A stretch of 64,000 nt of DNA, taken from NCBI GenBank assembly GCA_025766275.1, contig JAFKAC010000032.1, forward strand, positions 1 through 64,000, given 5' to 3'. This DNA comes from Lactarius indigo. Its lineage: Eukaryota > Basidiomycota > Agaricomycetes > Russulales > Russulaceae. The translations under genes and the position numbers were made by a program. Each line of letters starts with the position of its first letter. Within the stretch, counting starts at the first letter, position 1. Below are positions 29,006 to 60,488 of this stretch, one piece after another. The notes beneath the pieces are model-generated. The model was not told the origin of the DNA. It saw only the letters and a program-made list of their open reading frames with translations, and searched no databases.

Positions 29006-29471
29006 TGTTACGGTTTTTGCATTGGGTCCTTACTGTACCGGTTGTGGCTACGGCTGTAAGGTATATTAGTCACGGACTCGGGGTTTACGGTAGGAGTTAG
29101 GCGTTGAAGGATGACTCGATCCTAGTACAGGTGGTAGTAGTATTAGGATTGCGGTACTTACGCGATACGTTGGACGCTACATTATGGTGACTCATAGCAG
29201 CGCTTGAAAGCCTGCTCTTCTTGTATATAAGGTAGCTACGGAAGACCAAGATACGCCATCTTGGTCTTCTTCAATCGTCACTTCCAGTCTCTTTCATTTT
29301 CATCTCTAAAGACGTATCTTCCATCAAAGGGAAGAGCCCCATCCAAATCCTAGTGTCTGCGTACATCTAGAGCCCGCCTTTGAAAGCCATACGCCTTCGC
29401 GCGTGACTAGCTAAGTCATAGGAGTCGCCTTAATCGAGCTCAAGTCGAGCTAACGTCGTGACGGCGTTACA
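29006..29471 (+). repeat. 5' LTR of element C
   Basis: It runs TGTTACGG to GGCGTTACA. GTATATAAGG near 29223 is the likely TATA box, placing transcription start near the hairpin at 29241-29269. Only three bases differ from the 3' copy. Confidence 0.96.
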
Positions 29472-29485
29472 TTAAGACCAAGATC
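29241..29485 (+). promoter_or_regulatory. R-region hairpin and complementary primer-binding site
   Basis: GAAGACCAAGAT (29241-29252) and ATCTTGGTCTTC (29258-29269) form a 12-bp stem. The site just inside the LTR, TTAAGACCAAGATC (29472-29485), contains AAGACCAAGAT, the exact complement of ATCTTGGTCTT. If the RNA begins at about 29258, its 5' end can prime minus-strand synthesis on this site, as in Tf1 of fission yeast. B (24127/24143 with 24377), D (45615/45632 with 45888) and E2 (51114/51132 with 51374) keep the same arrangement. No tRNA-type TGG primer site is seen. Confidence 0.8.
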
Positions 29486-29491
29486 TTCATT

Positions 29492-36220: not shown

Positions 36221-36234
36221 TGAAAAGGGGGTGA
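36221..36234 (+). promoter_or_regulatory. 3' polypurine tract, element C
   Basis: TGAAAAGGGGGTGA abuts the 3' LTR (TGTTACGG at 36235) and should prime plus-strand DNA. The same 14-mer abuts the E1 and E2 LTRs (44905-44918 and 58173-58186), and a close variant abuts D (60506-60519). Confidence 0.88.
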
Positions 36235-36700
36235 TGTTACGGTTTTCGCATCGGGTCCTTACTGTACCGGTTGTGGCTACGGCTGTAAGGTATATTAGTC
36301 ACGGACTCGGGGTTTACGGTAGGAGTTAGGCGTTGAAGGATGACTCGATCCTAGTACAGGTGGTAGTAGTATTAGGATTGCGGTACTTACGCGATACGTT
36401 GGACGCTACATTATGGTGACTCATAGCAGCGCTTGAAAGCCTGCTCTTCTTGTATATAAGGTAGCTACGGAAGACCAAGATACGCCATCTTGGTCTTCTT
36501 CAATCGTCACTTCCAGTCTCTTTCATTTTCATCTCTAAAGACGTATCTTCCATCAAAGGGAAGAGCCCCATCCAAATCCTAGTGTCTGCGTACATCTAGA
36601 GCCCGCCTTTGAAAGCCATATGCCTTCGCGCGTGACTAGCTAAGTCATAGGAGTCGCCTTAATCGAGCTCAAGTCGAGCTAACGTCGTGACGGCGTTACA
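36235..36700 (+). repeat. 3' LTR of element C
   Basis: It is 466 bp, the same length as the 5' LTR. The differences by eye are TCG/TTG, ATCGG/ATTGG and TACG/TATG, all CpG transitions. Confidence 0.97.
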
Positions 36701-36805: not shown

Positions 36806-37487
36806 ACTCCCTGCTCCACAACACCATTCCCACTATGCCATCCCCTTTTCCCCCAGACATGGTGGACCAGTCGAGTTTCCTTGACTCATCGACAGACCCT
36901 GCTGACGATGGTGTTACCAGTGTAATAGTCCTCACCACCTCGTATGTGACTGCCCCACGAGACCAAGGCCAGCCTGCTGACATTGTCAAAGCCAGGAGCA
37001 CCAATTGTATCGGTGTATCTTCCGTCGTGCAGAGATGGTCACCGAGGTGATTACCATGCAACAAGCAGAAGAATGGATATGTCAGGAGATGTCCCCTGAT
37101 GAAACCACCTCCTTCACTGTGCCCTCCCCACCAACCACTACAGCTGCCACTCAGGGAAGGTGGTATGGGCAATGCTTCTGTTCCAATGCTAATCACGACG
37201 AGATCCATTGTCCACAATACAAGATGTGTCGCAAGTGTGGTGCATGGGGTCCCTTCCTTTTCCTCCGCACTCACTACTGCCCCACAGATATGGTGGGATG
37301 GAGTACACATGGCGTGTCTGCAACATCACCATCCACTTCTCAATCTAATGCATGCTCTGGCACTTGGTGCACACATGGCATGTCTCCCGTGTCACCATCC
37401 ACTTCTCAATCCAATGCACACTCTGGCACTCGATGCACAATGTGGCACGTCTCCCATGTCACCGTCCACTTCTCGTCTGACCCTTGA
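36806..37487 (+). pseudogene. Gypsy tail, right part: Cys-rich domain and repeats
   Basis: This continues the segment interrupted by B at 23859. A frame from 37005 to 37487 contains a Cys/His-rich block, CFCSNANHDEIHCPQYKMC then CRKC and a terminal HYC (about 37176-37281), that could bind zinc. Imperfect 65-bp repeats follow. Frames on the two sides of B do not join cleanly, so the source gene is decayed. I infer it is the C-terminal extension of the same old Gypsy element as 22646-23859; a separate gene cannot be excluded. Confidence 0.45.
37306..37475 (+). repeat. ~65-bp tandem repeat, about 2.5 copies
   Basis: Copies begin CACATGGCGTGTCTG (37306), CACATGGCATGTCTC (37372) and, degenerate, near 37436. 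Each contains TCACCATCCACTTCTC-like sequence. The period is 64-66 bp, so the reading frame is not strictly preserved. Confidence 0.8.
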
Positions 37488-40431: not shown

Positions 40432-40943
40432 TGTCATGAATGCCCCATATTTCTCTTCTTTTCTTTTCCATTCTTCCTTTCCATTCTTCCTTCACTTCTT
40501 TGCATTGCTGGCATCCGCTTTGCTGGCATCCGCTTTGCTGGCATTTGCCTTGCTGGCACTACATTTGCCTCGCTGGCACTACATTTGCCTCGCTGGCACT
40601 ACATTTGCCTTGCTGGCACTACATTTGCCTCGCTGGCACTACATTTGCCTCGCTGGCACTACATCGCCTTGCTGGCACTCCAGGACATCAGCTATATAAA
40701 CCCTGTAGTACGCCTTGTATTTCCTTAGCTTTGGCTTCGTCAATATACTGTCTAGTTTCCCTCAGCACATTCCTCTCATCTCTACCACAGCCCTCTTCTC
40801 TGAAGCCTTGTTACCTTGAGCTATATCAAGGAACACCCATCAGACTTAGACGCTGTTCTGCTCAGCAGCGGGTCGACTCAGTATCCTTTGCCTAAGGCAG
40901 GACCTGTTACAGATCAGACGTACGCCCCGACAGTGGTGTGACA
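40432..40943 (+). repeat. 3' LTR of element G (inserted in E1 RT)
   Basis: It starts TGTCATGAATG after AATGGGGGTAA and ends GTGGTGTGACA, 512 bp. It matches the solo LTR 5455-5869. CAAGT follows (40944-40948), at the RT position where E2 reads CAAAT, so G lies inside E1. Confidence 0.92.
40505..40680 (+). repeat. 20-bp minisatellite in the U3 of the G LTR
   Basis: Ten GCTGGCA units are present, six of them in a regular 20-bp form (CGCTGGCACTACATTTGCCT with minor variants), just upstream of GCTATATAAACCCTG. The solo LTR of the same family has about four units, which accounts for most of the length difference. Confidence 0.92.
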
Positions 40944-43900
40944 CAAGTCCCCCTACGCCTCATCCTTCTTCTTTATCAAAAAGAAGGATGGAAAATTACG
41001 ACCCGTCCAAGATTACCGAAAAATCAATGCCGTTACCATCTGGAATCAATACCCACTCCCTCTCATCTCTGATCTCATCACTGACCTTAGCAATGCTCAC
41101 ATCTATACCAAGCTCGATGTTAGATGGGGGTATAACAACATACGCATCAAGGAGGGAGATGAAGAGAAAGCCGCGTTTAAAACGCGTTATGGCTTGTTCG
41201 AACCTACAGTGATGTTTTTCGGCTTGACCAACTCCCCGGCAACGTTCCAGACTATGATGAATTTCATCTTCAGGGACATCATCGCGAAACATGAAAAACG
41301 GGGAACGATTATTCGAGTTTACATGGACGACATCGGCATCGCTACGGGGCTTAACCATTCCTTACTGGACCACATCAAAGCAGTCAAAGACGTTCTCCGC
41401 GTATCCGCAGAACACGACCTATACTATAAGCTTGAGAAATGTCTCTTCCACTCCCTGCGTATGGATTACCTGGGGGTAATCCTTGAAAAGGGGGTGACAC
41501 GCATGGACCCTGTCAAAATTTCGGGTATTAAAGACTGGCCTACGCCAACTAAAGTTAAGGACATCCGCTCTTTTCTCGGATTCTGCAATTTTTACCGACC
41601 CTTCATACGAGGATTTGCAACCAAAGCACGACCTCTTAACAAACTCACACGCAAAGATACCGAATGGCATTGGGGAACAGAGGAAGAAAAGGCGTTCCAA
41701 GACCTCAAAATCCTTGTCACTAGCAAACCCGTCCTCACACACCCAGACCTCACACAACAATTCGAGCTAGAAGTCGATGTGTCAGGATTTGCCACCGGAG
41801 CCGTTCTTCTCCAGCGTAAAACAGACAGCAAACGGCACCCCATCGGCTATTACTCATCCACTCTCAACGAAGCCGAACGAAATTACGACATCTACGACCT
41901 TGAACTTTTGGCAATCGTCAAAGCATTCCACCACTGGAGACCCCTCTTAGCGGGCTCCCCCCACAAAATCAAAGTGTTCTCCGACCACCTCAACCTACAA
42001 TATTGGAGATCACCACAAAAGATTAGCAGATGTGTAGCCAGGGAAGTACTCGAACTCTCCAAATACGATTTCGAGATTCACCACATCAAAGGCACTTCCA
42101 ACGGACGTGCTGATGCATTGTCACGAAGACCAGATTACGACCAGGGAGAAAACGACAACGAAGGGATCACGGTATTACCAGAAAACATCTTTGCATGTGC
42201 TACCACACTGGAAGAACCGCGACATCTGCACGGGAGACCCGAAATTCTACCCGCAGAAATGACTCCGGAACATCCAATCTACGAGCAAGACATAGCTAAG
42301 TTGAGACCCTGGGTTGACGCACATAAACTAAATGACATCGAAGGAACATGGTATAAGGATGGGCGTTGAGTAGTCACTGGCGGGATCCACGATAAACGCA
42401 CTATCATAGCCGCCCACCACGACTCCCCTGTCTATGGCCATCCAGGTATTAAACGAACTCTCCAGCTTACCGAACGACACTACTGGTGGCTGCAGATGAA
42501 AAACGACGTCACAGACTATGTCAGGGGTTGCGCGGAATGCCAGCGGCACAAAGTCAACCTACGCCCCATTAGGGCACCGCTACAACCAATCTACCCTAAA
42601 CCAGAAGCCTTACCATTTGAGACCATCGCAGTGGACTTCATCACTAAACTCCCCGTATCCCATGGCTATGACTCAATCCTAACAGTAACGGACCACGATT
42701 GTACCAAAGCTGCTATCTTTATCCCCTGCAATGAAGAGATAACCGCCAAAGGAACGGCAGCCCTGTACGTCTCTCATGTGTTTCCACGATTTGGACTCCC
42801 CTCGCGTGTTATCAGCGACCGAGATCCCTGCTTTGCATCAAAGTTCATGCGAGAGATATGTAAAATTCTTGGCATCAGCCAAAATATCTCAACCACTTAT
42901 CACCCTCGAACCGATGGCCAATCAGAACGAACAAATCAGTGGCTCGAACAATATCTCCGCTTCTGGGTAAATGAGCGGCAGGATGACTGGGTTCGTTATC
43001 TGCCTATGTCAGAATTCACGCATAACAACTGGCCTAACGAGACAACACGGGAGTCCCCCTTTTTCCTCTTATCAGGGTTCAACCCTCGCGCTGATTGGAC
43101 CGATAGACCTTCTCCTATTCCGCAAGTATCTTTAAGATTGGACCAATTCAAGCAGGCGCGACAGCGCGCATTCTCGTGCATGCTCAGGGCGCAGAAGTCA
43201 TGGGTCAAGCACAAAGATACGCCCAAATTCAAGGAAGGAGACCTCGTGTGGCTTGAAGGGCACCACCTACGCACACACCAACCAACCGCAAAACTAGCGG
43301 CCAAACGACATGGACCATTTAAGGTCATTCAGGTGATGTCCCCTGTCAACTATCGCCTTGAGCTTCCCACGCAGTGGAGCATCCATGATGTCTTCCACAT
43401 AGATCTTCTCACACCTTATTGTGAGACACCCACACACGGACCAAACTATCAGCGCCCACCACCTGATTTGGTCGATAACGAAGAAGAGTATGAGGTCGAG
43501 AAGATTCTAGACTCTCGGCGGTTCGGCAGAAGACGCCGGCTCCAGTACCTTGTCAAATGGAAGGGCTACTCGGACTCCGATAACCAATGGATAGATAAGG
43601 ATGACGTATTTGCCGACAAAGCCGTTTGGGAATTCAAACATTCCAACCCCAACAGGGAAACTCATATAAGGATGACCTTCTGTCGTGATAAGTCCCCATC
43701 ACTCACTCATCCCATGTCCTCTACTCAACGAAATGACCAGCTCGCACTCCTCTCTACCCTCGTCAATGACTCCTCCGCCACACTTGTCGACCCCAACTCC
43801 ACCAATGACACCGCAACCACTGGAGTTACGGGAAGAGGCCGTACCTCCATGCAGCATGAGGAAGACAGCCCTATCACTAGTGAGGAACTGCGCCAGACAC

Positions 43901-44886
43901 TGCAACGATTCCCTTTGCCCCTACAGGGAGTTGTCGACGATGATCCAGCAGCAACTCAACCAGCACCTCCACCAATGTACGCCCTCACAAACCCCAGCAC
44001 TGGTGAGCCCAAAGTCTTCCTCACCGAAGATGAGCTCTTTCGGCTTCAAGCAGCTGTCCCGCGCAGTGAAGCCACCAGACGCCATGAAGAAGTACGAACA
44101 AGAGTGGAAGGAGATGGCGGTGCGGTGGCAGCAGGAGCAACTGCATATCGCTGCCTGCCGACGCCGAATGATGAAGGAGCGGAGGGAGTACTGGACGAAG
44201 ATGAGGATGAGGACGAGCTTGGAGACCACTACCCTATCAGGCACACATTCCTTAAACATGAATTCTACGCTGAAGATCCAGCCGCCACTCCCTACCTCGT
44301 CGACGCAGCGGGGGGGCCTCTACACCAGGGACGAGTCGCCATGGCACAAGTGGCTCGTTATACACCAATGGGCGAACGAGACCCAGCAACCAGGGCTGTC
44401 GTCCCTGAAGGGTTCCAGGTCAATAGAGGACCCGATTACATTCCGTTCCCGATCAAGCTCCCCAACGGACCGACGGTACAAGCCTCTCACGTACAGGTTA
44501 TCCGAGGAGGAGACCCCTTCATACTCGGACTAGCTCCGGGATCGGGCTTCCTTTACAGCAAGCCCCTTTACACCACCCCCCATCTGCCAAAAAACAACCG
44601 CGCTTTCATACCCCACGAGGAGTACTTCATGCTCCGCGATCGACATCCCACCGACCTGTTACTAATGCGCATCAGGGATGTCACCCTTACTCAAGAGTTG
44701 CGCCGATTCCGGCAATTCGCGTTTGCCGAGGACCAACTGGAGAAGAGGATTCGGCAGTTGCAGATGGAGAAGCAGATGGTGGCTGACGATAAAAAGGACA
44801 GTCTCTACCGTCTTGAGTGGGCTAACATACTAGCACGCATGGAGGACGAAGCTGAACAGATGAGGACGGAATCGCAGGTGGATTAG
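40944..44886 (+). pseudogene. pol: Element E1 pol (RT to C-terminal extension)
   Basis: The frame is open except for TGA at 42367-42369, where E2 has CGA (GRRVVTGG). It contains the RT palm VYMDDIGIATGL, the hairpin plus purine tract (41484-41497), RNase H LEVDVSGFATGAVL, the integrase zinc region (GCAECQRHKVNL), VDFITKLPVS, VISDRDPCF and NQWLEQYLRF, the chromodomain LQYLVKWKGYSDSDNQWI near 43540 and the extension with PEGFQVNRGPDYIPFPI and ASHVQVIRGGDPFILG. It lacks protease and the RT fingers. The stop makes it inactive. Confidence 0.9.
43685..44533 (+). CDS. Overlapping +1-frame ORF in the E1 pol tail
   Basis: This 282-codon frame is +1 to pol, the same length and position as the E2 copy. 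It contains WKEMAVRWQQEQLHIA (about 44100-44150) and a terminal SIEDPITF. It remains open although pol upstream has acquired a stop. No consistent ATG is shared with C or D. Confidence 0.5.
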   Translation: MISPHHSLIPCPLLNEMTSSHSSLPSSMTPPPHLSTPTPPMTPQPLELREEAVPPCSMRKTALSLVRNCARHCNDSLCPYRELSTMIQQQLNQHLHQCTPSQTPALVSPKSSSPKMSSFGFKQLSRAVKPPDAMKKYEQEWKEMAVRWQQEQLHIAACRRRMMKERREYWTKMRMRTSLETTTLSGTHSLNMNSTLKIQPPLPTSSTQRGGLYTRDESPWHKWLVIHQWANETQQPGLSSLKGSRSIEDPITFRSRSSSPTDRRYKPLTYRLSEEETPSYSD

Positions 44887-47961: not shown

Positions 47962-50873
47962 ACCCGTCAGTCTGGGTGAGGGCTCTACAATGTAATTCTG
48001 TAATTGTGACAACACGCTATCGATCTTTGCAAATCCCAGTGACCGTCCGAACGAATTACCAAATGACTGAAACCAATGCGTTGGTCGACTCTGGAGCGAC
48101 CGACAACTTCATCCGACCAAGTATGGCAGCACGGGCGGGCATCCCAGTGCAACAATTGGAAATGCCACGCAAAATATGGAATATAGATAACACGGAGAAC
48201 AAAGCTGGGTTAATCACTCATTACGTTAACCTAGAAGTAAAAACGCGTGGACAGATAAAAAAGATGACCTTCCTGGTCACCGACCTCGGTAGCGAAGACA
48301 TGGTACTTGGCTACCCATGGTTAGGCGCTTTCGAACCCACTATCTGTTGGGCAACGGCAACAATACATCCCGACATGCAACCCGTAACACTAGCCACCAC
48401 TGAAGAGTTGCTCACCGCCCCCACCATTCGAGCCCTAATTACGGCCGAAAAGGAAGCCATCTTACAAGAGTTGACCGAAGAAACATTTGCACGCGCCACT
48501 ACCTTGACGGAGTTGGCCATCTTAGCAAAGCAACAACAAATGGCAGCTGTGCTGCCACCAGTATATGGGGAGTTTAGCAAACTCTTCAATGAACAGGCTT
48601 CACATTGATTCCCTCCGGCGAGACCTTGGGATCACGCAATTGACTTTAAACTGTCCGCGCCGGTGTCGATAGACTGCAAAATATACCCCATGACGCAGAA
48701 AGAGGAAGAAGAGCTGAAGGAATTCCTTGAAGAAAAGTTAAAACAGGGATACCTATGCCCTTCCATTTCCCCGTACGCCTCCTCCTTTTTCTTCATTAAA
48801 AAGAAGGACAGAAAACTACGCCCGGTCCAGGACTACCGTGTTATTAACTCGCACACTATCCATAATCAGTACCCGCTACCGCTGATCCAAAACCTCATTC
48901 TCGACCTCAGCAACGCACACATTTACACAAAACTTGACATTCGCTGGGGTTACAACAACATACGCATCCGTGACGGTGATCAAGAAAAAGCGGCCTTCAA
49001 AACCAAATTCGGTCTTTTCGAACCCACGGTCATGTTCTTTGGCCTTACCAACTCTCCGGCAACTTTCCAGGCAATGATGAACCACATCTATCGGGACACG
49101 ATCGCGAAGCACAAACGCTTGGGCACTACGATACGTGTTTACATGGATGACATTGGTATTGCCACTCACTTCGAACATGATTTGGCGGCCCATGTCAATG
49201 CGGTTCGTGACATTTTGCGCGTCGCGGAGGAGCACGACCTCTACTTCAAACTCGAAAAGTGCTTGTTCCATCAGCCGCACATGGATTACCTGGGGGTAAT
49301 CCTTGAAAGGGGGGTGACCCGAATGGACCCTGTAAAAGTTCAAGGCATCAAGGACTGGCCGACGCCGACAAAGGTCAAGGACGTTCGTTCCTTTCTCGGC
49401 TTCTGTAACTTTTACAGACTTTTCATCCGCGGCTTCGCAACTCACGCCAAACCGCTCACCAAACTAACACAAAAAGACGAAGAATGGCGGTGGACAGAGG
49501 ACGAAGACAAGGCGTTCAAAACCTTGAAACGTCTTGTAACGGAGGAACCAGTGCTGGCACACCCCGTCCTCCAAGACCCGTTTGAGCTGGAAGTTGACGC
49601 GTCGGGATACGCGGTGGGAGCCGTCTTACTACAAAAGAAATCTGACGGAAAACAACATCCCATAGGATATTACTCCGCAATGCTCTCGGAGGCAGAACGC
49701 AATTACGACATTTACAACCTGGAACTACTGGCGATCGTCAAAGCATTGAGAAACTGGAGACCGCTACTCGCGGGAGCCCCACACAAAATCAAAATTTATT
49801 CGGACCATCTCAACTTGCAGTACTGGAAGTCGCCACAAAAGATCAGTAGACGGGTCGCTAGGGAAGTGCTTGAACTCTCCGAATATGATTTCGAGATTCA
49901 CCACATCAAGGGAAAAAACAATGGGAGAGCAGACGCGTTGTCAAGACGACCAGACTATGATCAAGGGGTCGAAGACAACAGCGAAGTAGTCGTTCTGCCT
50001 CCTGAAATCTTCGTACAAACCCTTAACACCGCACGCACCTTCACCGCGAACCCAAATCTACTACAACCACGCCATCAACAAGATGAAGAAGTAATTAAGA
50101 TATGGGCTGACCCTCATCGCCTCAAAAAAATACAAGGAGAATGGTACAAGGACGGCAGGTTCATAATCACAGGGCCTGCATCAAGCCAACGAGCGCTGAT
50201 ACACGACCATCACAATCTACCGATACACGGCCACCCGGGAATCGTGAGAACTCAACGCATCCTGGAAAGACATTACTGGTGGCCACAACTACGAAGGGAT
50301 GTATATGAGTACGTACAAGGCTGCGTGGAGTGCCAACGAAACAAAGTAAACACAAGACCCATATGAGCCGCGTTACATCCCATTACACCGGTACTGGAAG
50401 CCATGCCGTTTCACACAGTAGCAGTGGACTTCATTACCAAACTCCCCGTATCCAAAGGGCATGACAGCATACTAACCGTCACGGACCACGACTGCAGCAA
50501 GGCGTCCGTTTTTATCCCATGTTGAGAAGAAATTACTGCGGAAGAGACAGCAACCCTGTACGTCGCTCACATATTCAAACGTTTCGGGCTGCCGCGCAAA
50601 ATCATCAGCGACCGCGATCCCTGCTTTACATCCAAATTTGTCAGGGAAGTCTGCCGCATCCTGGGGATCCAACAGAACATATCGACCGCGTATCACCCGC
50701 GCACCGATGGACAATCTGAACAAACAAACCAGTGGCTGGAACAGTATCTACGCTTCTGGGTGAACAAGCGGCAAGATAACTGGACGACTTATCTGCCAAT
50801 CGCGGAATTCACACACAATAACTGGCCCCATGAACACACCAAGAAGTCGCCATTCCAACTTCTGATGGGTTAT
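47943..50873 (+). pseudogene. pol: Element D pol, part 1 (protease to integrase)
   Basis: It holds the protease VDSGATDNFI near 48090, RT with SSFFFIKKKDRKLRPVQDY and VYMDDIGIAT near 49135, the hairpin and purine-tract copy (49279-49316), RNase H LEVDASGYAVGAVL near 49590 and the integrase as far as FQLLMGY. TGA stops lie at 48606, 50364 and 50523. E2 enters after gttat (50869-50873), and the frame continues at 58692. Confidence 0.9.
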
Positions 50874-51373
50874 TGTTACGGAATGGTACGGACTTCACGA
50901 CTCATGACCGGTTATGACTACGGTCCGGTATCAGTATTAGTCATGGACTCTTACTTCGCATCAGTCAGCATAGTAGTTCGCATGTGATTGTGACTCATGT
51001 ATGACTCATTCCTAGGATAGCAGTACTAGGGTTCGAGCTAGTTACGCTATTGGTTACGTACTATTTGAGCGGCGCTTTAAAGCCCGCGCGTATCTGTATA
51101 AGTAGTCGACTCGGAAGACCAAGAGTCCCCATCTTGGTCTTCTTCAATCCACCGCTTGACTCGTTTCCTATCTGCCTTAGTCTTTGGCTAAGTGTGCCTC
51201 CGCTCGTATCTACCAAGGATACTCCTTCTTATCCCTTTCGCTGCAGTGTGAGCTAGAGGAGCCCCTGTTCAGCTTGCGTTGGGTTGACACGTGATCCCCA
51301 TTTGCCTAACTTTCGCTAAGTCGATTACGCCTACTATAAGTCCAGGTCGGACTAACGCTGGTGGAGCGTAACA
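50874..51373 (+). repeat. 5' LTR of element E2
   Basis: It runs TGTTACGGAATGG to GGAGCGTAACA. The hairpin is GAAGACCAAGA (51114-51124) with TCTTGGTCTTC (51132-51142), downstream of TGTATAAGTAG. The primer site is 51374-51387. Confidence 0.96.
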
Positions 51374-51393
51374 TTAAGACCAAGATCCCCATC

Positions 51394-53379
51394 ATGGCGT
51401 ACTCGACCAGAGACCAGTGGACGTCTTTCTGTCCCTATCATATCGAACGACGAGGAGACCGCAACGTACCAACAAGATTCCTAAGAGCGGCTCAGTGGAG
51501 AGAAAGAGGAGAAGACACTGGATATTTTGTAGAGTTCAACAGTCCTAACCGTTTCCGACCCGTTGAGTTTAATTTCGAACATCTCTGTTGGGTCGAGGTT
51601 ACTTGGAACCCCATAGATCATCGCTGGGACATTATACGACCAGCGGGAAGAAACTACAACTGCGATATCGACGCACGAGAGCTTAATAGCCGCGCAGATT
51701 ACGGTCCTATCGACGGACAAGCACAAGAACACACCGACGAAGGAGTCAGTGGAGGAGAAGAAGCCTCCAATAGTCAACAATCGTCAAGTCGAGGGACAAC
51801 GCCAGCCAAAGAAGCAAGACTAGGAGCTATCGGCGATCACATCATACAACGAACCGAGTCGTTAACTATTCATCAACCCGAGCCGGAAGTAATCCACATC
51901 CGTAGCCCAGCAGTCGCAATGGCAACAACCACCATTACTCAAGAAGAGGGATACCTCACTAGTGAAGCAAGGGATCAGATTGCCCTAGAAGAGCAAAGAC
52001 GTATTACAGAAGAATCGCGAGCTAATCTAGCTCCTATTAACCCATACACTGGTCATCGAATGACTGAAGATGACATAGCAATTCACCGTGCCATTGGGCC
52101 CGACATAGCTGACCCCCCCAGTGGAGGAGGTGGACCCCCGGGTGGCCTACCCGGCGGAGGAGGTGGAGGACCCCCACCAGGAGGACCAGGGTTCGAAGGG
52201 TTCCCTGGAGGATTCCCAAGAGGACCACCAGGAGGAGGACCACCAGGAGGAGGACCTCCGGGAGGAGGACTACCAGGTGCAGGTCCCATTGTTCCCCCTC
52301 CAAGCAATAAGTTAGCTGGCGAAGCACCCACAGTATTCGACGGAGAACGCGCCAAAGTTGAAGCGTTTCTCACTCAATGGCATGTCTACTGGGGCATGAA
52401 CGCAGACGAAGGCATAATGGCCACGCCCTATTGACGAGCCCTACTTTTCCTATCGTACATCAAGGGCATCAATGTCAGCGAATGGGTATTGGCGATGCTT
52501 ACCTGGCTTAACGGCCAGATACAAGCTGGCATACTCCGAACTAGTGAGGGACTATGGAACGAAATCACGCGCAGCTTCATGCAGCGCTTCCGCAACACGA
52601 TGGAACAAGAACAAGCTCAATACGAGCTCAAGAAAGGAGTCAAGATGATCGGAGGCAATCTAGATGAGTATTGCACCCAATTCGAACAATTAATACGCCG
52701 CGCTCAGTATCGACTCGACAATCCGCAGACGCTAGACTTATTTGCGAGCGGACTACCAAAAGACCTATATGAAAAGGTCTACACTCTTGACAACCCCCAC
52801 AACTACCGCGAGTGGAAAGAAGCAGCCACCACTCGTCAACAACAGTATCTTCACCTTAAAGTGGTGTTGAACAAGGGAGTTTCTCCTGGACAAGGACAAG
52901 GAAGGCAACGACAACAACGACAGTGGCAGGGACCACCAAGAAGTTCATGGCAGCCAAGAAATTTGCGAGACCCAAACGCCATGGATACCTCTGCAGACCG
53001 AATTCGAGGGTGACTCGCAGGAGCTGAGGACATACTCGCCCCTCGTCCCCCATACCGACCAAGAGGAGGATTTTTACAGAAAGGGGGGGGGCGTAATAAC
53101 CAAAGGCCAGTCACGTGTTATAACTGTGGAAAGGACGGACACATGGCCCCCGATTGCAGACAACCGCGAGGAGGATATCAGCCTCAAGCATCAACTAGTC
53201 GGTACATCGACACTGACTACCACCAACAAGAACCAGAAGTCGCTACCAGGGCGGTCCAAGAAGTGCCCCCTCAACAGCGCGCCAGCGACTGGCTTAATGG
53301 AGTAGCTGGAGAATCAGACGACGTAAAGGACATTATCCTCCAACAGTTGTGGAAAAAGGAGGGTTTTCAGGACGCCTGA
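51394..53379 (+). pseudogene. gag: Element E2 gag (two in-frame TGA)
   Basis: Unlike B, C and D this copy has ATG at the conserved start (AYSTRDQWTSFCPYHI). The N-terminal domain is followed by an acidic linker, a long Gly/Pro-rich tract (about 52110-52300), a capsid-like region (FLTQWHVYWGMNAD) and the knuckle CYNCGKDGHMAPDC near 53118-53159. TGA at 52432 and 53011 interrupt it at sites compatible with former CGA. Gag ends at TGA 53377, and GGGTTTT at 53361-53367 leads to pol. Confidence 0.9.
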
Positions 53380-56300
53380 ACCCATCGGCCTGGGTGAGGG
53401 CAGTTAATTGTAACAGTGTAATCATGACTCGCTATCGTTCTATGAGAGTTCCAGTATCGATTCGCACCAGTTACGCAATGGCCGACATACGCGCATTAGT
53501 CGACTCAGGAGCAACCCATTGCTTCATGAAACCATCATTCGCAAAAAGAATGGGACTTGGAACCAAACCACTCGATGTTCCAAAGAAAATATGGAACATT
53601 GATAACACAGAAAATAAATCGGGGCGTATCACCCATTATACCGATGTTGATGTCCAAACTAAAGGCATTCACAAGGAAATCCGCTTCCTCATCACAGACA
53701 TCGGAAACGAAGATATCGTGTTAGGCTATCCCTGGCTTGCCATCTATGACCCGCATATTAAATGGTCACAAGCGGCCATACACGAAGACATGCTCCCCAT
53801 CATTATTCGATCAATCAATCCCTACATTAAAACAACGCCCGTAGTGGCAGCAGCTGTCATTCAAAATGATGATTATGAGGTCGTACACTCCTGCGTCATC
53901 ACTGATGAACAACGACAGCAATTTGAAGAAGGATGCCGAATCAGGGCCACTGCCACTGATCTCGCCATAGCCGCTCAACAATATGTCACGAAAGCTGAGT
54001 TACCCTCCGAATATCGCGAGTTTGAACGCCTCTTCAGTGAAGAAGCATCGGACAGGTTTCCACCCAGCAGGCCCTGGGATCACGCCATTGAATTCAAACC
54101 AGGAACAGCCGACGCGATTGACTGCAAAATATACCCCATGACACAAGAAGAGGACAAGAAATTACGCGAGTGGATCGACGAACAACTCAAAAAGGGGTAT
54201 ATAAGACCCTCCAAATCCCCTTACGCGTCATCCTTTTTCTTCATCAAGAAAAAGGATGGAAAACTACGACCCGTCCAAGACTATCGAAAAATCAACGCCA
54301 TCACCATCCGCAACCAATACCCTCTTCCCCTCATTTCTGACCTCATTACCGACCTCAGTAACGCCCACATCTACACTAAGCTCGACGTTAGATGGGGGTA
54401 TAACAATGTACGCATCAAAGAAGGAGATGAAGAAAAGGTGGCATTCAAAACACGTTACGGCTTATTCGAACCCACGGTGATGTTTTTCGGCTTAACCAAC
54501 TCCCCGGCAACGTTCCAGACGATGATGAACTTCATCTTCAGGGACATCATCGCAAAACATGAAAAACGCGGCACAGTTATTCACGTCTACATGGACGATA
54601 TCGGTATCGCCACGGGACTTGACCATTCGCTGCAGGACCATATCGAAGCTGTCAAAGACGTGCTCCGTGTATCCGCGGAGCATGATTTGTATTACAAACT
54701 CGAAAAATGTCTCTTCCACTCCCCACGCATGGATTACCTGGGGGTAATCCTTGAAAAGGGGGTGACACGCATGGACCCTGTCAAAATTTCGGGCATCAAG
54801 GATTGGCCTACGCCAACGAAGGTTAAGGACGTCCGCTCTTTTCTTGGCTTCTGCAATTTTTACAGACCTTTCATACGAGGATTCGCAACCAAAGCACGAC
54901 CATTGAACAAACTTACACGCAAAGATACCGAATGGCACTGGGGCGCGGAAGAAGAAAAGGCATTCCAAGACCTTAAAACCCTCGTCACTAGCGAACCGGT
55001 CTTAGTGCATCCAGATCTTACGCAACAATTTGAGTTAGAAGTCGACGCATCGGGTTTTGCCACGGGAGCAGTCCTTCTTCAACGGAAAACAGATGGTAAA
55101 CGACACCCTATTGGCTACTACTCGTCCACCCTCAACGAAGCCGAACGAAATTATGACATTTACGACCTCGAACTCCTGGCCATTGTCAAAGCCTTTCGCC
55201 ACTGGAGACCCCTCCTAGCGGGCTCCCCTCACAAGATCAAAGTATTTTCCGATCACCTTAACTTACAATATTGGAAGTCACCACAAAAGATTAGCAGACG
55301 TGTAGCCAGGGAAGTACTCGAACTTTCGGAATACGACTTCGAAATTCACCACATCAAAGGTACCTCCAACGGGCGCGCCGATGCACTATCCCAAAGACCA
55401 GATTACGATCAAGGAGAAAATGACAACGAAGGCATAACAGTACTGCCCGAAAGTGTCTTTGCGCGTGCCACCACACTAGACGAACCGCGACACCCCCACT
55501 GGAGACCCGAGATCCTACCTGTAGAGATGACGCCAGAACATCCCATTTACGAACAAGACACAGCTAAGTTGAAACCCTGGGTTGACGCTCACAAATTAAA
55601 AGACATCGAAGGAACATGGTACAAGAACGGACGTCGAGTAGTCACCGGAGGCATCCATGACAAGCGTACTATTATCGCCGCTCACCATGACTCCCCCGTC
55701 TACGGCCATCCTGGTATCAAACGTACTCTCCAACTTACTGAACGACATTACTGGTGGCCGCAAATGAAGAACGACGTCATGGATTACGTCAAAGGTTGTG
55801 CAGAATGTCAGCGACACAAAGTCAACCTCCGACCTATCAGAGCACCCCTACAACCCATCTACCCTAAACCGGAAGCCCTGCCATTCGAGACCATCGCAGT
55901 AGACTTTATTACCAAACTCCCCGTCTCTCGCGGTTACGATTCCATTCTCACGGTGACAGATCACGATTGCACTAAAGCTGCTATCTTCATCCCTTGTAAT
56001 GAAGAGATAACGGCCGAGGGAACGGCTGCCCTGTATGTCTCTCATGTTTTCCCACGATTTGGACTCCCTTTGCGTGTTATCAGCGACCGAGATCCCCGCT
56101 TCGCATCAAAGTTCATGCGGGAGATGTGTAAAATCCTTGGCATCAGCCAAAACATCTCAACCGCTTATCACCCCAGGACTGACGGCCAATCGGAGCGAAC
56201 AAATCAATGGCTGGAGCAGTATCTCCACTTCTGGGTAAATGAACGGCAAGACGATTGGGTCCGTTATCTGCCTATGGCAGAATTCACGCACAACAACTGG

Positions 56301-58154
56301 CCTAACGAGACCACACGAGAGTCTCCCTTCTTTCTCCTGTCCGGGTTCAACCCTCGCGCTGATTGGACCGACAGGCCTTCCCCCATCCCACAAGTATCAT
56401 TAAGACTAGACCAATTTAAACAAGCGCGACAGCGCGCTTTCTCCTGCATGCTCCGGGCGCAGAAGTCATGGGTCAAACATAAAGATACGCCCAAATTCAA
56501 AGAAGGAGACCTCGTGTGGCTAGAAGGACGCCACTTACGCACCCATCAACCAACCGCAAAACTAGCGGCTAAACGACACGGACCATTTAAGGTCATCCAG
56601 GTGATGTCCCCTGTTAATTATCAACTCGAGCTTCCCACGCAGTGGAGCATCCATGACGTGTTCCACATAGATCTCCTCACGCCTTATCGTGAAACACCCA
56701 CGCACGGACCAAATTATCAGCGCCCACCACCTGATTTGGTCGATAACGAGGAAGAATACGAAGTCGAGAAGATTCTAGACTCCCGGCGATTCGGCAGAAG
56801 ACGTCGACTTCAATACCTTGTCAAATGGAAGGGCTATCCGGACTCAGACAATCAATGGATAGATAAGGATGACGTATTTGCCGACGAAGCCATTCGGGAC
56901 TTCAAACATTCCAACCCCGACAGGGAAACGCATATAAGGGTAGCCTCCAGTCGTGATAAGTCCCCATCTCCCATTTACTCCATGCCCTCTACTCGACACA
57001 ATGACCAGCTCGCACTCCTCTCTACCCTTGTCAACGACTCCTCCGCCACGCTTGTCAACCCCGACTCCACCAATGACACCGCAACCACTAGAACTACGGG
57101 AGGAGGCCGTCCCTCCATGCAGCATGAGGAAAACGGCCCTATCACTGGTGAAGAATTGCACCAGACACTGCAACGATTCCCTATGCCCGTACAGGGAACT
57201 CTCGACGACGATCCAGCAACAACTCAACCAGTACCTCCGCCAATGTATGCCCTCACAAACCCCGACACCGGTGAGCCCGAAGTCTTCCTCACAGAAGACG
57301 AGCTTTTTCGGCTTCAAGCAGCTGTCCCGCGCGGTGAAACCACCCGACGCCATGCAGAAGTACAAACAAGAATGGAAGGAGACGGCGGGGCGGTGGCAGC
57401 AGGAGCAACTGCATATCGCTGCCTGCCGACGCCGAATGATGAAGGAGCGGAGGGAATATTGGACGAGGATGAGGATGAAGACGAGCTTGGAGACCACTAC
57501 CCCATCAGGCACGCATTCCTTAACCATGAATTCTACGCTGAAGATCCAGCCGCCACTCCCTACCTCGTCGACGCAGCGGGGGGGCCTCTACACCGAGGAC
57601 GAGTCGCCGTGGCACAAGCGGCTCGTTATACACCAATGGGCGAACGAGACCCAGCAACCAGGGCCATCGTCCCTGAAGGGTTCCGGGTCAATCGAGGACC
57701 CGATTACATTCCGTTCCCGATCAAACTCCCCAACGGACCGACGGTACAAGCATCCCACGTACAGGTTATCCGAGGGGGAGACCCCTTCGTACTCGGATTA
57801 GCTCCGGGGTCGGGTTTCCTTTACGGTAAACCCCTCTACACCACCCCCCATCTCCCAAAAAATAACCGTGCATTCATCCCACACAAGGAGTACTTCATGC
57901 TCCGCGACCGACACCCCACGGACCTATTACTAATGCGCATTGGGGATGTCACTCTCACCCAGGAGCTGCGGCGGTTCAGGCAATTTGCGTTTGCCAAAGA
58001 TCAGCTGGACAAGCGGATTCGGCAGCTGCAGATGGAGAGGGAGATGGTGGTCGCGGACAAAAGGGACAGTCTCTATCAGCTGGAGTGTGCTAACATACTG
58101 GCTAGGATGGAAGATGAAGCGGAACGAATGAGGACGGAATCGGTAGCGGATTAG
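53361..58154 (+). CDS. pol: Element E2 pol polyprotein, intact
   Basis: It is entered by -1 shift and open to TAG 58152, about 1,597 residues. Protease VDSGATHCFM near 53503; RT with SSFFFIKKKDGKLRPVQDY near 54230 and VYMDDIGIAT near 54587; hairpin plus purine tract 54731-54765; RNase H LEVDASGFATGAVL near 55038; integrase with GCAECQRHKVNL, VDFITKLPVS, VISDRDPRF and NQWLEQYLHF (55690-56260); integrase C-terminal GDLVWLEGRHL; chromodomain LQYLVKWKGYPDSDNQWI near 56812; extension with PEGFRVNRGPDYIPFPI, ASHVQVIRGGDPFVLG, LYGKPLY and a terminal charged helix. All catalytic motifs are present, so it could supply enzymes in trans. Confidence 0.95.
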   Translation, partial: GFSGRLNPSAWVRAVNCNSVIMTRYRSMRVPVSIRTSYAMADIRALVDSGATHCFMKPSFAKRMGLGTKPLDVPKKIWNIDNTENKSGRITHYTDVDVQTKGIHKEIRFLITDIGNEDIVLGYPWLAIYDPHIKWSQAAIHEDMLPIIIRSINPYIKTTPVVAAAVIQNDDYEVVHSCVITDEQRQQFEEGCRIRATATDLAIAAQQYVTKAELPSEYREFERLFSEEASDRFPPSRPWDHAIEFKPGTADAIDCKIYPMTQEEDKKLREWIDEQLKKGYIRPSKSPYASSFFFIKKKDGKLRPVQDYRKINAITIRNQYPLPLISDLITDLSNAHIYTKLDVRWGYNNVRIKEGDEEKVAFKTRYGLFEPTVMFFGLTNSPATFQTMMNFIFRDIIAKHEKRGTVIHVYMDDIGIATGLDHSLQDHIEAVKDVLRVSAEHDLYYKLEKCLFHSPRMDYLGVILEKGVTRMDPVKISGIKDWPTPTKVKDVRSFLGFCNFYRPFIRGFATKARPLNKLTRKDTEWHWGAEEEKAFQDLKTLVTSEPVLVHPDLTQQFELEVDASGFATGAVLLQRKTDGKRHPIGYYSSTLNEAERNYDIYDLELLAIVKAFRHWRPLLAGSPHKIKVFSDHLNLQYWKSPQKISRRVAREVLELSEYDFEIHHIKGTSNGRADALSQRPDYDQGENDNEGITVLPESVFARATTLDEPRHPHWRPEILPVEMTPEHPIYEQDTAKLKPWVDAHKLKDIEGTWYKNGRRVVTGGIHDKRTIIAAHHDSPVYGHPGIKRTLQLTERHYWWPQMKNDVMDYVKGCAECQRHKVNLRPIRAPLQPIYPKPEALPFETIAVDFITKLPVSRGYDSILTVTDHDCTKAAIFIPCNEEITAEGTAALYVSHVFPRFGLPLRVISDRDPRFASKFMREMCKILGISQNISTAYHPRTDGQSERTNQWLEQYLHFWVNERQDDWVRYLPMAEFTHNNWPNETTRESPFFLLSGFNPRADWTDRPSPIPQVSLRLDQFKQARQRAFSCMLRAQKSWVKHKDTPKFKEGDLVWLEGRHLRTHQPTAKLAAKRHGPFKVIQVMSPVNYQLELPTQWSIHDVFHIDLLTPYRETPTHGPNYQRPPPDLVDNEEEYEVEKILDSRRFGRRRRLQYLVKWKGYPDSDNQWIDKDDVFADEAIRDFKHSNPDRETHIRVASSRDKSPSPIYSMPSTRHNDQLALLSTLVNDSSATLVNPDSTNDTATTRTTGGGRPSMQHEENGPITGEELHQTLQRFPMPVQGTLDDDPATTQPVPPPMYALTNPDTGEPEVFLTEDELFRLQAAVPRGETTRRHAEVQTRMEGDGGAVAAGATAYRCLPTPNDEGAEGILDEDEDEDELGDHYPIRHAFLNHEFYAEDPAATPYLVDAAGGPLHRGRVAVAQAARYTPMGERDPATRAIVPEGFRVNRGPDYIPFPIKLPNGPTVQASHVQVIRGGDPFVLGLAPGSGFLYGKPLYTTPHLPKNNRAFIPHKEYFMLRDRHPTDLLLMRIGDVTLTQELRRFRQFAFAKDQLDKRIRQLQMEREMVVADKRDSLYQLECANILARMEDEAERMRTESVAD
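54731..54765 (+). promoter_or_regulatory. Hairpin and internal polypurine tract in pol
   Basis: GGATTACC (54731-54738), loop TGGG, GGTAATCC (54743-54750), then TGAAAAGGGGGTGA (54752-54765), identical to the 14-nt 3' purine tract. The 28 nt from 54729 are identical in B, C, D, E1 and E2, though flanking codons vary. It may act as a central polypurine tract giving a second plus-strand start. Seen directly; the role is inferred. Confidence 0.65.
56953..57801 (+). CDS. Overlapping +1-frame ORF in the E2 pol tail
   Basis: A 282-codon frame, +1 to pol, from shortly after the chromodomain to 57801. The first 130 residues are Ser/Thr/Pro-rich. Residues about 133-172 (57349-57468) form a charged helix with WKETAGRWQQEQLHIA, and the end has SLKGSGSIEDPITF. 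In the same window the pol frame of E2 (GDGGAVAAGATAYRCLP) bears no resemblance to the C or D pol frame, while this frame does resemble their +1 frames. No ATG is shared; entry by +1 shift or reinitiation is inferred. Function unknown. Confidence 0.55.
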   Translation: MISPHLPFTPCPLLDTMTSSHSSLPLSTTPPPRLSTPTPPMTPQPLELREEAVPPCSMRKTALSLVKNCTRHCNDSLCPYRELSTTIQQQLNQYLRQCMPSQTPTPVSPKSSSQKTSFFGFKQLSRAVKPPDAMQKYKQEWKETAGRWQQEQLHIAACRRRMMKERREYWTRMRMKTSLETTTPSGTHSLTMNSTLKIQPPLPTSSTQRGGLYTEDESPWHKRLVIHQWANETQQPGPSSLKGSGSIEDPITFRSRSNSPTDRRYKHPTYRLSEGETPSYSD

Positions 58155-58186
58155 TGAGGTGGGCCTCACTCCTGAAAAGGGGGTGA

Positions 58187-58686
58187 TGTTACGGAACGGT
58201 ACGGACTTCACGACTCATGACTGGTTATGACTATGGTCCGGTATCAGTATTAGTCATGGACTCTTACTTCGCATCAGTCAGCATAGTAGTTCGCATGTGA
58301 TTGTGACTCATGTATGACTCATTCCTAGGATAGCGGTACTAGGGTTCGAGCTAGTTACGCTATTGGTTACGTACTATTTGAGCGGCGCTTTAAAGCCCGC
58401 ATGTATCTGTATAAGTAGTCGACTCGGAAGACCAAGAGTCCCCATCTTGGTCTTCTTCAATCCACCGCTTGACTCGTTTCCTATCTGCCTTAGTCTTTGG
58501 CTAAGTGTGCCTCCGCTCGTGTCTACCAAGGATACTCCTTCTTATCCCTTTCGCTGCAGTGTGAGCTAGAGGAGCCCCTGTTCAGCTTGCGTTGGGTTGA
58601 CACGTGATCCCCATTTGCCTAACTTTCGCTAAGTCGATTACGCCTACTATAAGTCCAGGTCGGACTAACACTGGTGGAGCGTAACA
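58187..58686 (+). repeat. 3' LTR of element E2
   Basis: It is preceded by TGAAAAGGGGGTGA (58173-58186) and has the same length as the 5' LTR. The seven differences by eye are all C/T or G/A, mostly at CpG. Confidence 0.96.
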
Positions 58687-58691
58687 GTTAT

Positions 58692-60488
58692 GATCCACAA
58701 GCAGATTGGACGGATAAGCCATCCCCTCTTCCCCAAGTAACGGAGCGGCTGACACAATTGAAAGAGGCTAGAGAGGACGCCCAACGCCTCATGAAGAAGA
58801 CGCAAGAAGCCTGGGTCTGTAACAAAGATACACCCAAGTTCAAAAACGGGGATCTTGTTTGGTTAGAAGGTAAACACCTGCGGACCAATCAACCCACGGC
58901 GAAATTAGCGGCGCGATGCCACGGACCCTTTCGGGTAGTTCAGGTGATGTCCCCCTATAATTATCGATTGGAACTTCCCACGCAGTGAAGCATTCACCCA
59001 GTGTTCCACATCGATTTGCTCACGCCATACAAGCAAACCCTGATTCATGGGGAAAACTTCACACGACCGCCACCTGAGCTGATTGATGGAGAAGAAGAAT
59101 ATGAAGTCGAGGCCATTCTAGATTCTCGGCACTTCGGCAGAGGACGACGCCTTCAATACTTGGTCAAATGGAAGGGATACCCAGACTCGGAGAACCAGTG
59201 GGTCAACAAGGATGACGTCTTTGCACCTGAGGCCCTCCGCCTATATCAGGAAACACAGATGCACAGGAAAACGATTAAAATGGGCAGCGCAAAGACAGAG
59301 GAAAGTCATCCCCTCTTCCTACGTGCCACTACCACCCTTATGCCTACATCCCCATTGCGACATGTCACACAAGCGCAACTCCTCGACTCCCTCACAGAGG
59401 ACGCCCACACCCTCTTGGCTGAGGACGATGACACCGAAGTACCCAACACTCAGCTCGCGCCATGGACACCTCTTACGCCAGCAGAGGGGCCCATCACCGT
59501 GCAAGAATGGATCAACGTTGTCACCAGATTCCCCGACCCAACAACTACTGCCGACGACGAACGAGCAGTCGTCCACGTCTTCCGAAATGAAGACGGTGAG
59601 CGCAAACCGATCGCCGCTATCCCCCCAAGCGACGACCTCATCGGCGTTCGTGGAGTTTTCCCGAGCAACAACCAGCGTTCAAGCGCTGATGGAGTATGAG
59701 TTGGAGGGGTGGAGGAGAGTAGCAGCGGAGTGGCAGAAGGAGCAGTTGGACTCAGCCGTGGCCCGACTGAGAGAGATGCGCGAGCGACGGCAGCGATGGC
59801 AGCAGCTGAGGCTGGCCATGACGACGAAGATTATTACCCGGCGAGACACTCCTTCCTTCGAACGAAACGCGACGCTGATAATCCCCGGGTCACACCCTGG
59901 CTCGTCCACTCCGACGGGTCCCCCATGTATCGAGGACGTGTGCGCGTGCCTGGTGCCGCTGATCACCGTCCGTTCACCGCCGCCGAGGACCCCACGCATG
60001 TCATTGCGCCTGAAGGGTTCCGGGCGAACCGACGACCCCATTACATTCAATACCCCATCACCGGACCCAACGGAGTAGAGCGGGACGCGTCGCACGTTCA
60101 GATTATTGGAGGGGCAGACCCCCTCATACTAGGAGTTATACCGGGCTCGCCGCACGTATACGGTAAGCCCTTCTACGCTGAGCCCCACGTGTCGGCCGCG
60201 CTCTGTCCCACGTACCCCCACGAGGACCTTGTCGTCTTCAAGGCGGACCGAATCACCGACCGCGCGCTCAACTGCATTAACAACGAGTTGCTTACAGCTG
60301 AGGTTACGCGCTTCCGCGCGGCCAGCTACAAGCTCGACCGTCTTCGCGCTCGAGTTAGCCAACTCCGAGCCATGATCGAATGTGCACAGGACGACAGAAG
60401 GGACTCCATTTATCGGCTGGAGCGAGCGACGGCGCTGGAGCACATTGCCGATGAACAACGCGATTGGCCGGTGAGGGACTTTCGGTGA
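58692..60488 (+). pseudogene. pol: Element D pol, part 2 (integrase end to extension)
   Basis: It continues the frame of 50873 with ADWTDKPSPLPQV, GDLVWLEGKHL, the chromodomain LQYLVKWKGYPDSENQWV near 59154 and the extension (PEGFRANRRPHYI, ASHVQIIGGADPLILG, YGKPFY), ending at TGA 60486. TGA at 58986 replaces TGG (QWSIHP in relatives), and TGA at 59697 falls where the +1 frame, not pol, is conserved between families. A purine tract (60506-60519) and the 3' LTR follow. Confidence 0.9.
59212..60078 (+). CDS. Overlapping +1-frame ORF in the D pol tail
   Basis: A 288-codon frame from an ATG inside the chromodomain region, +1 to pol. It carries EGWRRVAAEWQKEQL (about 59701-59745), ERRQRW, DTPSFERNATLIIPGS and SLRLKGSGRTDDPITF, very close to the C copy. 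It stays open across the pol stop at 59697. Confidence reflects comparison among copies, since no function is known. Confidence 0.55.
   Translation: MTSLHLRPSAYIRKHRCTGKRLKWAAQRQRKVIPSSYVPLPPLCLHPHCDMSHKRNSSTPSQRTPTPSWLRTMTPKYPTLSSRHGHLLRQQRGPSPCKNGSTLSPDSPTQQLLPTTNEQSSTSSEMKTVSANRSPLSPQATTSSAFVEFSRATTSVQALMEYELEGWRRVAAEWQKEQLDSAVARLREMRERRQRWQQLRLAMTTKIITRRDTPSFERNATLIIPGSHPGSSTPTGPPCIEDVCACLVPLITVRSPPPRTPRMSLRLKGSGRTDDPITFNTPSPDPTE

Follow-up and report, generated by a model that had tools for sequence, protein, structure and literature searches.

A Probable Second Gene Nested in the pol Tail of Several Chromovirus Families of Lactarius indigo

The window considered here, the first 64,000 nucleotides (nt) of contig JAFKAC010000032.1 of the basidiomycete Lactarius indigo (GenBank assembly GCA_025766275.1; 90.3 Mb in 291 contigs), contains four Ty3/Gypsy retroelements, labeled C, D, E1, and E2, with pol genes that continue past the chromodomain into a long tail. 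Comparison of the many copies of these elements in the genome, together with those of further families F, G, and H, indicates that in several chromovirus families this tail very probably contains a second protein-coding gene, fully nested in pol in the +1 frame and held under purifying selection at the same time as pol itself. E1 and E2 represent a single family, E.

A Second Open Frame within the pol Tail

An earlier note on this DNA had pointed to a long open reading frame (ORF) in the same +1 frame of all four copies. The existence and the frame of these ORFs are borne out: all four are in frame +1 relative to pol and lie within the post-chromodomain tail, extending from stop to stop over 35000-35794 (C), 43676-44533 (E1), 56944-57801 (E2), and 59122-60078 (D). 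Three of the starts given for them required correction, as there is no ATG at 43685 or 56953 and the ATG at 59212 is an upstream one without homology, leaving only the C start at 35069 as correct. Alignment provides a common ATG for all four, from which the genes are read as follows.

57001-57801, plus strand: E2 overlapping gene, +1 frame, 266 amino acids, ATG to stop
43733-44533, plus strand: E1 overlapping gene, +1 frame, 266 amino acids
35069-35794, plus strand: C overlapping gene, +1 frame, 241 amino acids
59362-60078, plus strand: D overlapping gene, +1 frame, 238 amino acids, from the conserved ATG

The +1 stops of C and D align with each other, and the +1 frame of E extends about 20 codons beyond them. 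The openness of these spans exceeds chance when judged by synonymous shuffling of the pol codons: in 5000 shuffles of each element, the +1 span came through without a stop 31 times in C, 16 times in D, once in E1, 0 times in E2, 51 times in F, and 14 times in G. Across 30 copies of C, 30 of D, and 29 of E, the numbers of stops within the overlap in the pol, +1, and +2 frames are 5, 0, and 297 (C), 6, 4, and 318 (D), and 7, 2, and 469 (E). The D copy of the window has an in-frame pol stop at 59697-59699, within the overlap, at which the +1 ORF is still open; this stop (reference position 606) is confined to that one of the 30 D copies.

Constraint on Two Frames at Once

The same 89 copies, all from this genome, were aligned over the tail, with a site counted as shared-variable when two states each occur in at least three copies. 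In the geometry of this overlap, the third position of a pol codon is the second position of a +1 codon, and the first position of a pol codon is the third position of a +1 codon. The fraction of pol third positions that are shared-variable before the +1 ATG, in the overlap, and past the +1 stop is 0.378, 0.116, and 0.496 in C, 0.611, 0.244, and 0.723 in D, and 0.452, 0.195, and 0.746 in E, so that shared third-position variation is 2-4-fold lower between the +1 ATG and the +1 stop. Inside compared with outside the span, the counts are 28/241 versus 102/227 in C (Fisher 3.9e-16), 58/238 versus 154/227 in D (Fisher 2.7e-21), and 52/266 versus 126/202 in E (Fisher 1.9e-21). Variation recovers at the +1 stop of each family, at reference positions 994 (C), 985 (D), and 1051 (E, in 9 copies). 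Synonymous variation of the host frame is thus depressed only within the overlap, weakly so in the first 80 codons of D. Routine stops in the +1 frame and undepressed synonymous variation, which the earlier note had named as findings that would speak against a hidden gene, were both looked for in this genome, and neither was found.

The +1 frame itself shows purifying selection. Every shared change at pol position 1 within the overlap is synonymous in the +1 frame (27/27 in C, 42/42 in D, and 79/79 in E; 148/148 together), where the expected synonymous fractions are 0.87, 0.88, and 0.82, giving a joint probability of 1.7e-11 if the changes are independent. Past the +1 stop, the corresponding counts are 8/12, 16/17, and 20/30. 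Ratios of nonsynonymous to synonymous changes (N/S) over expectation in the overlap are 0.37, 0.37, and 0.52 for pol in C, D, and E, 0.59, 0.79, and 0.43 for the +1 frame, and 2.9-4.5 for the +2 frame; by this measure both the pol and the +1 frames look constrained.

The possibility that an RNA structure, a packaging signal, or a mutation cold spot depresses variation, with openness of the +1 frame a by-product of composition, is extremely unlikely. The G+C-rich nature of the region and the presence of open frames on the other strand are compatible with such a cause, as are the shuffled spans that stay open in C and F and the reduction of low-frequency changes in C, but 148 of 148 synonymous changes in one particular frame and +1 readings that can be aligned across families at 24-75 percent identity are not what it predicts. 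The depression, moreover, ends at the +1 stop, the position of which differs from family to family. Low-frequency changes, which are taken to be mostly post-insertion decay, show no drop inside the span in D (p 1.0) or E (p 0.65), and a mutation cold spot is disfavored because they are undepressed in these two families.

In an antisense gene read exactly complementary to the pol codons, the third position would likewise coincide with pol position 1. The phase pattern by itself therefore does not discriminate between such a gene and the +1 gene, and antisense ORFs of this kind are open in C and E2. E1 and D, however, have no antisense ORF of at least 200 amino acids, the limits of the depression match the +1 ATG and stop, and the position-1 changes that are without exception synonymous in the +1 frame are synonymous in the antisense register in only 24/27 (C), 39/42 (D), and 72/79 (E) cases, or 135/148. 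N/S over expectation in this register, antiparallel to frame +0, is 0.66, 0.79, and 0.51 in C, D, and E. An antisense origin of the pattern is hardly credible and is the least probable of the alternatives. The long minus-strand ORFs in question lie at 34585-35226, 35227-35904, and 56844-57587, and selection shows no preference for their register over the +1 frame.

Copy Selection and Further Families

The C and D copies and 20 of the 29 E copies were picked by similarity of their +1 protein, and three comparisons are free of this bias: E1 with E2, a set of E copies selected by DNA, and families F and G. Between E1 and E2, both of which lie in the window, the difference at pol position 3 is 0.09 inside the overlap, compared with 0.24 and 0.36 beyond it. 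In the set made up of E1, E2, and the seven DNA matches ranking next after E2, all position-1 changes inside the overlap are synonymous in the +1 frame (35/35), compared with 15/19 past the stop. Families F (L089) and G (L090), retrieved by a DNA pattern for the conserved helix of the +1 product, keep the ORF from the homologous ATG over 240 and at least 263 codons, respectively, and the pol position 3 difference between C and F is 0.20 within the overlap and 0.37 and 0.47 outside. Within the overlap, the +1 products of different families share 24-75 percent identity; the alignment across families used G as far as its first pol stop and H as far as an insertion. As the earlier note had observed, the helix region aligns well across families in the +1 frame and poorly in pol. 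A further set of 61 distinct 38-mers from helix-pattern matches has diversity spread evenly over the codon positions (0.42, 0.46, and 0.37) and is uninformative, repeats among the approximately 100 listed rows having been omitted, which inflates rare variants.

Several observations weigh on the other side. Picking copies by +1 similarity can favor those that conserve the +1 frame. E2 and G, which have diverged in both frames, differ at third positions by 0.39 inside the overlap and 0.38 upstream of it, and the single copy of H (L091) has no aligned +1 ATG and is broken by its insertion, with the helix kept. The reduction of low-frequency changes in C (p 4e-5) is not fully explained, and in D the overlap begins with 80 codons of weak depression, 36/80 third positions varying there. 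N/S alone is not decisive between frames: in D the +1 value over expectation (0.79) is about the same as that for low-frequency changes (0.77), and scores in the antisense register are similar. A search with the +1 alignment found no protein homolog at an expectation value of 0.01 among 5590 candidates.

The insertion in H (L091, about 800-1220) contains short GCTGGCA-type repeats and a TATATAAA stretch and resembles a solo long terminal repeat (LTR); its short repeats recur in the window at 40507-40681 and 5768-5804.

The hidden overlapping gene suggested in the earlier note is thus upheld by a phase-specific drop in variation whose limits are the +1 ATG and stop, by complete synonymy of position-1 changes, and by conservation in further families. 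It probably arose, on weak indications, by overprinting of an older pol tail; codon usage favors pol over the +1 frame in E2 (0.067 versus -0.106) and hardly does so in C (0.021 versus 0.006).

How the Overlapping Protein May Be Expressed

The conserved start of the +1 frame is an ATG in 88/89 copies, with a purine at -3 in 89/89. A pol-frame ATG with a pyrimidine at -3 precedes it by 22 nt (C and D) or 19 nt (E) in 89/89 copies. F and G have the same arrangement of two ATGs, G with an extra ATG at -44 in the third frame. Upstream of the pair is an A/T-rich core that is found in every family.

56982-56984, plus strand: E2 pol-frame ATG, 19 nt before the +1 ATG, pyrimidine at -3
35047-35049, plus strand: C pol-frame ATG, 22 nt before the +1 ATG, pyrimidine at -3
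56931-56938, plus strand: E2 TATA-like CATATAAG upstream of the +1 ATG, motif in 29/29 E copies, putative function
43663-43670, plus strand: E1 TATA-like CATATAAG upstream of the +1 ATG, putative function
34982-34987, plus strand: C TATA-like TTAAAA upstream of the +1 ATG, in 30/30 C copies, putative function
59275-59280, plus strand: D TATA-like TTAAAA upstream of the +1 ATG, putative function

The D copies carry TTAAAA (14), ATAAAG (15), or ATAAAA (1) at this site, F has TTAAAA, and G and H have CATATAAG. The distance from the core to the +1 ATG is 87 nt in C and D and 70 nt in E, and, by arithmetic, 87 nt in F and 64 nt in G. The LTRs of C carry TATATAAG and those of E2 carry TATAAG.

These features suggest, with about an even chance of being right, that an internal promoter gives a short transcript on which leaky scanning lets the +1 protein start at an AUG of its own. 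The TATA box would be the A/T-rich core, which reads CATATAAG, TTAAAA, or ATAAAG and lies 64-87 nt before the +1 ATG. The first AUG, in the pol frame and in weak context, would yield a free pol-tail protein, and the second, 19-22 nt downstream in the +1 frame and in strong context, would yield the overlapping protein by leaky scanning. Some of the details fit this scheme poorly. The C and D references of the window hold one more pol-frame ATG between the TATA-like site and the ATG pair. Support for the TATA box from invariance is modest: among 20000 permutations, 302 in C, 4464 in D, and 812 in E contain a run as long as the longest invariant one observed, which in E is TAAGTCCCCA rather than the TATA-like stretch. 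In addition, CATATAAGG encodes H-I-R, so that a protein motif may be what is conserved in place of a TATA box.

The main rival on the question of expression accepts the gene and derives its message from splicing of a long transcript, a route that is unlikely, if much less so than the alternatives that deny the gene its own start or its coding role. Lentiviral accessory genes are expressed from spliced messages. The env-like message of the barley element Bagy2 is likewise spliced, according to the available part of the report (PMC7264820). C and F have a pyrimidine tract and a CAG 2 nt before the ATG, as an acceptor site would require, but there is no acceptor at this place in D, E1, E2, or G, and the TATA-like core is retained in every family.

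Programmed +1 frameshifting, which would make a fusion of Pol with the +1 product and which the earlier note had offered as an alternative to a separate gene, is very unlikely. The offset of the gene from the pol frame in which it lies is indeed +1, and gag and pol are themselves in different frames, but the ATG and the purine at -3 are conserved almost without exception. In E, a +1 stop 66 nt upstream of the ATG in 9/9 aligned copies leaves only about 60 nt for a shift site; stops near there also occur in some C and D copies. A frameshift origin would require selection on the +1 frame upstream of the ATG as well, so that the undepressed third-position variation of D between reference position 200 and the ATG (14/24, with 6/24 in C and 7/18 in E) counts against it. 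The suggestion of a +1 shift product is therefore not sustained.

The Predicted Product

One feature of the +1 product, the helix that was already singled out in the earlier note, stands out in both the alignments and the structure prediction.

57343-57489, plus strand: E2 +1 product helix, 49 residues (115-163), W-x6-W-x2-EQL

An AlphaFold2 model of the E2 product, built with only four sequences, has this one confident helix, with 199/266 residues below 50 and a mean predicted local distance difference test (pLDDT) score of 49.5; the model of the pol tail is also poor (mean pLDDT 36.5). The +1 products of the window copies have predicted isoelectric points of 9.7-11.0 and contain 33-41 percent Ser+Thr+Pro, and the pol tail is acidic (5.2-5.5). 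As modeled, then, the +1 product is basic and mostly disordered with one long helix. Such a combination suggests self-association and nucleic-acid binding, and it is possible, though doubtful enough to fall somewhat below an even prospect, that the protein has both properties and acts as an accessory factor for the RNA or particles of the element, or against silencing. The hydrophobic periodicity of the helix varies by family and was not used. By a simple hydropathy scale, no membrane segment is found in the products of C, D, E1, E2, F, or G, with a best 19-residue mean of 0.22-1.31. An env-like or fusogen accessory ORF, which should have a hydrophobic transmembrane segment, was considered and rejected by this scale.

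The Host Elements and Their Copies

C and E2 extend from LTR to LTR, with LTR repeat cores of 300 nt that are 98 percent alike in C and 97 percent in E2. Their pol proteins have the Pfam domain order of Ty3/Gypsy chromoviruses: protease, reverse transcriptase (RT), RNase H, integrase, and chromodomain.

53298-58154, plus strand: E2 pol, protease/RT/RNase H/integrase/chromodomain/tail, the tail overlapping the +1 gene
31252-36204, plus strand: C pol, domain order and tail as in E2 pol
42370-44886, plus strand: E1 pol fragment, integrase to tail
50867-51166, plus strand: E2 5' LTR repeat core, partner 58180-58479, 97 percent
58180-58479, plus strand: E2 3' LTR repeat core, 25 nt past the pol stop
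28998-29297, plus strand: C 5' LTR repeat core, partner 36227-36526, 98 percent
36227-36526, plus strand: C 3' LTR repeat core

The tail comprises about 414 residues past the chromodomain and ends at a pol stop 22-25 nt upstream of the 3' LTR repeat core. In E2 there is no room for a separate 3' gene, because this core begins 25 nt past the pol stop. Relative to gag, pol is in frame -1, and the two genes overlap by about 232 nt in C and 82 nt in E2. The gag frames are broken by in-frame stops, at 30158-30160 in C (gag 29462-31483) and at 52432-52434 and 53011-53013 in E2 (gag 51340-53379), and judged by these stops both copies look decayed.

The helix is abundant in the genome: W-x6-W-x2-EQL written as a DNA pattern has 1174 matches (612 + 562), compared with 1 for a reversed control. 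Searches with the +1 proteins scored 145 copies from 1354 candidates for C, 125 from 1651 for D, and 136 from 1358 for E, and by hand count of the resulting tables a stop is listed in 15/145 C rows and 14/136 E rows. Stops are frequent in the D rows, but the D query started 80 codons upstream of the conserved ATG.

Elsewhere in the window, a 66-nt unit is duplicated head-to-tail at 37299-37430, its two copies 83 percent alike, and no Rfam family or tRNA is found.

Breadth beyond This Genome

The +1 gene is supported for this genome alone, and database proteins give a hint of its breadth. Used alone as a query, the pol tail has no homolog among 7990 candidates scored, and Pfam scans of the +1 products and searches of solved structures return nothing at their cut-offs. 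Short of these cut-offs are BcsO (expectation value 0.3), the Snx8 BAR domain (0.0033), and DUF6347 (0.0098), none of which was accepted. DNA of relatives was sought in viral and genome contig collections, and none was confirmed there. The RT region, used as a control, matches 3293 database proteins, some of them with tails, and the tails are taken to be too diverged for word search.

Among the 120 matches listed of these 3293, 41 are tail-bearing, with at least 130 residues from the chromodomain motif on. The motif H-[IL]-[RK] follows the chromodomain in 37/41 of these listed proteins, and M-[STP] occurs within 36 residues of it in 29/37, versus 29/310 windows from the rest of the tails; after crude redundancy removal, the counts among the matches listed are 22/26 and 16/22. 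Either a TATA box or a motif of the protein could account for the conservation of H-[IL]-[RK]. The presence in tail-bearing pols (P0003-P0105) of this motif together with an internal M-S-S-like start hints, at the level of protein sequence, that many elements may produce their pol tail as a protein of its own. In 3/41 (P0005, P0045, and P0051), pol has a stretch that would permit W-x6-W-x2-EQL in the +1 frame, where shuffling gives a mean of 0.22 and a maximum of 2.

Comparison with Known Systems

Annotation of LTR retrotransposons usually covers gag and pol only. If the nested gene is real, "simple" retrotransposons can hold virus-style accessory genes that annotation has overlooked, and pol-tail proteins in the databases may hide a second message. 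Several families in one genome, with more than 1000 helix matches, would also offer a natural series for the study of how overlapping genes are retained or lost, and the question of expression is directly testable with RNA data.

The available parts of two fungal surveys (PMC2864245 and PMC3248453) and of a review of recoding (PMC5009743) do not describe the overlapping ORF; the first of these treats fungal Gypsy elements with a chromodomain, and a legend in it explains an "add. ORF" of unknown function. A literature search found no report of a gene nested in Ty3/Gypsy pol among the titles and opening lines of abstracts listed, and since the subscription literature was mostly outside its coverage, novelty is unproven. 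By host, the nearest known cases are Ty1 p22, insect sORF2, and the additional ORFs of plant elements. Accessory ORFs beyond gag-pol that bear signs of selection are described, in the portions of the sources available, for insect elements of the MDG1 group (sORF1 and sORF2; PMC11952523) and for plant LTR retrotransposons (PMC7264820). Unlike the +1 gene, these are not nested in pol but are placed 5' of gag or in the stretch from pol to the 3' LTR, and sORF2 has a transmembrane domain, of which the +1 product seemingly has none.

Regulators made from internal transcripts offer a second kind of parallel. Ty1 p22 is in the gag frame. As presented in the available text, the p22/p18 restriction factor, a regulator of this yeast LTR retrotransposon, comes from a subgenomic transcript begun in the coding region of the element itself (PMC8458377); p22 differs from the +1 gene in acting from within gag. 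The internal promoter of foamy viruses, which drives tas and bet, has an experimentally determined TATA box in a coding region, long conserved and similar to that of the LTR, in the part of the work available (PMC3798896). The chromoviruses would resemble this system in having a possible TATA-type element in coding sequence 5' of an accessory ORF, with TATATAAG in the C LTRs and TATAAG in the E2 LTRs, and differ from it in that their TATA box is putative and that foamy virus accessory genes lie downstream of env rather than within pol.

The closest likenesses in design are to this foamy virus promoter and to the PreS/S gene of hepadnaviruses, which is nested in P and for which the accessible part of the source reports variability that is lowered only in the RT/S overlap and an origin by overprinting (PMC5604429). 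Like the +1 gene, PreS/S lies wholly within an RT-bearing ORF, is shifted by +1 nucleotide downstream, and lies partly over a spacer. S, in contrast, encodes envelope proteins, whereas a simple measure shows no membrane segment in the +1 product, the gene for which overlaps a C-terminal, post-chromodomain tail. The hosts and elements are unrelated, and the two are likened by design, not by sequence. A broader proposal, put forward tentatively and with somewhat less than an even chance, is that many fungal chromoviruses carry within pol a bicistronic 3' cassette consisting of an internal TATA promoter, a free pol-tail protein begun at a weak AUG, and an overprinted basic protein begun at a strong one. 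If so, such chromoviruses would count as "complex" elements whose accessory genes are regulated, in convergence with foamy viruses and hepadnaviruses.

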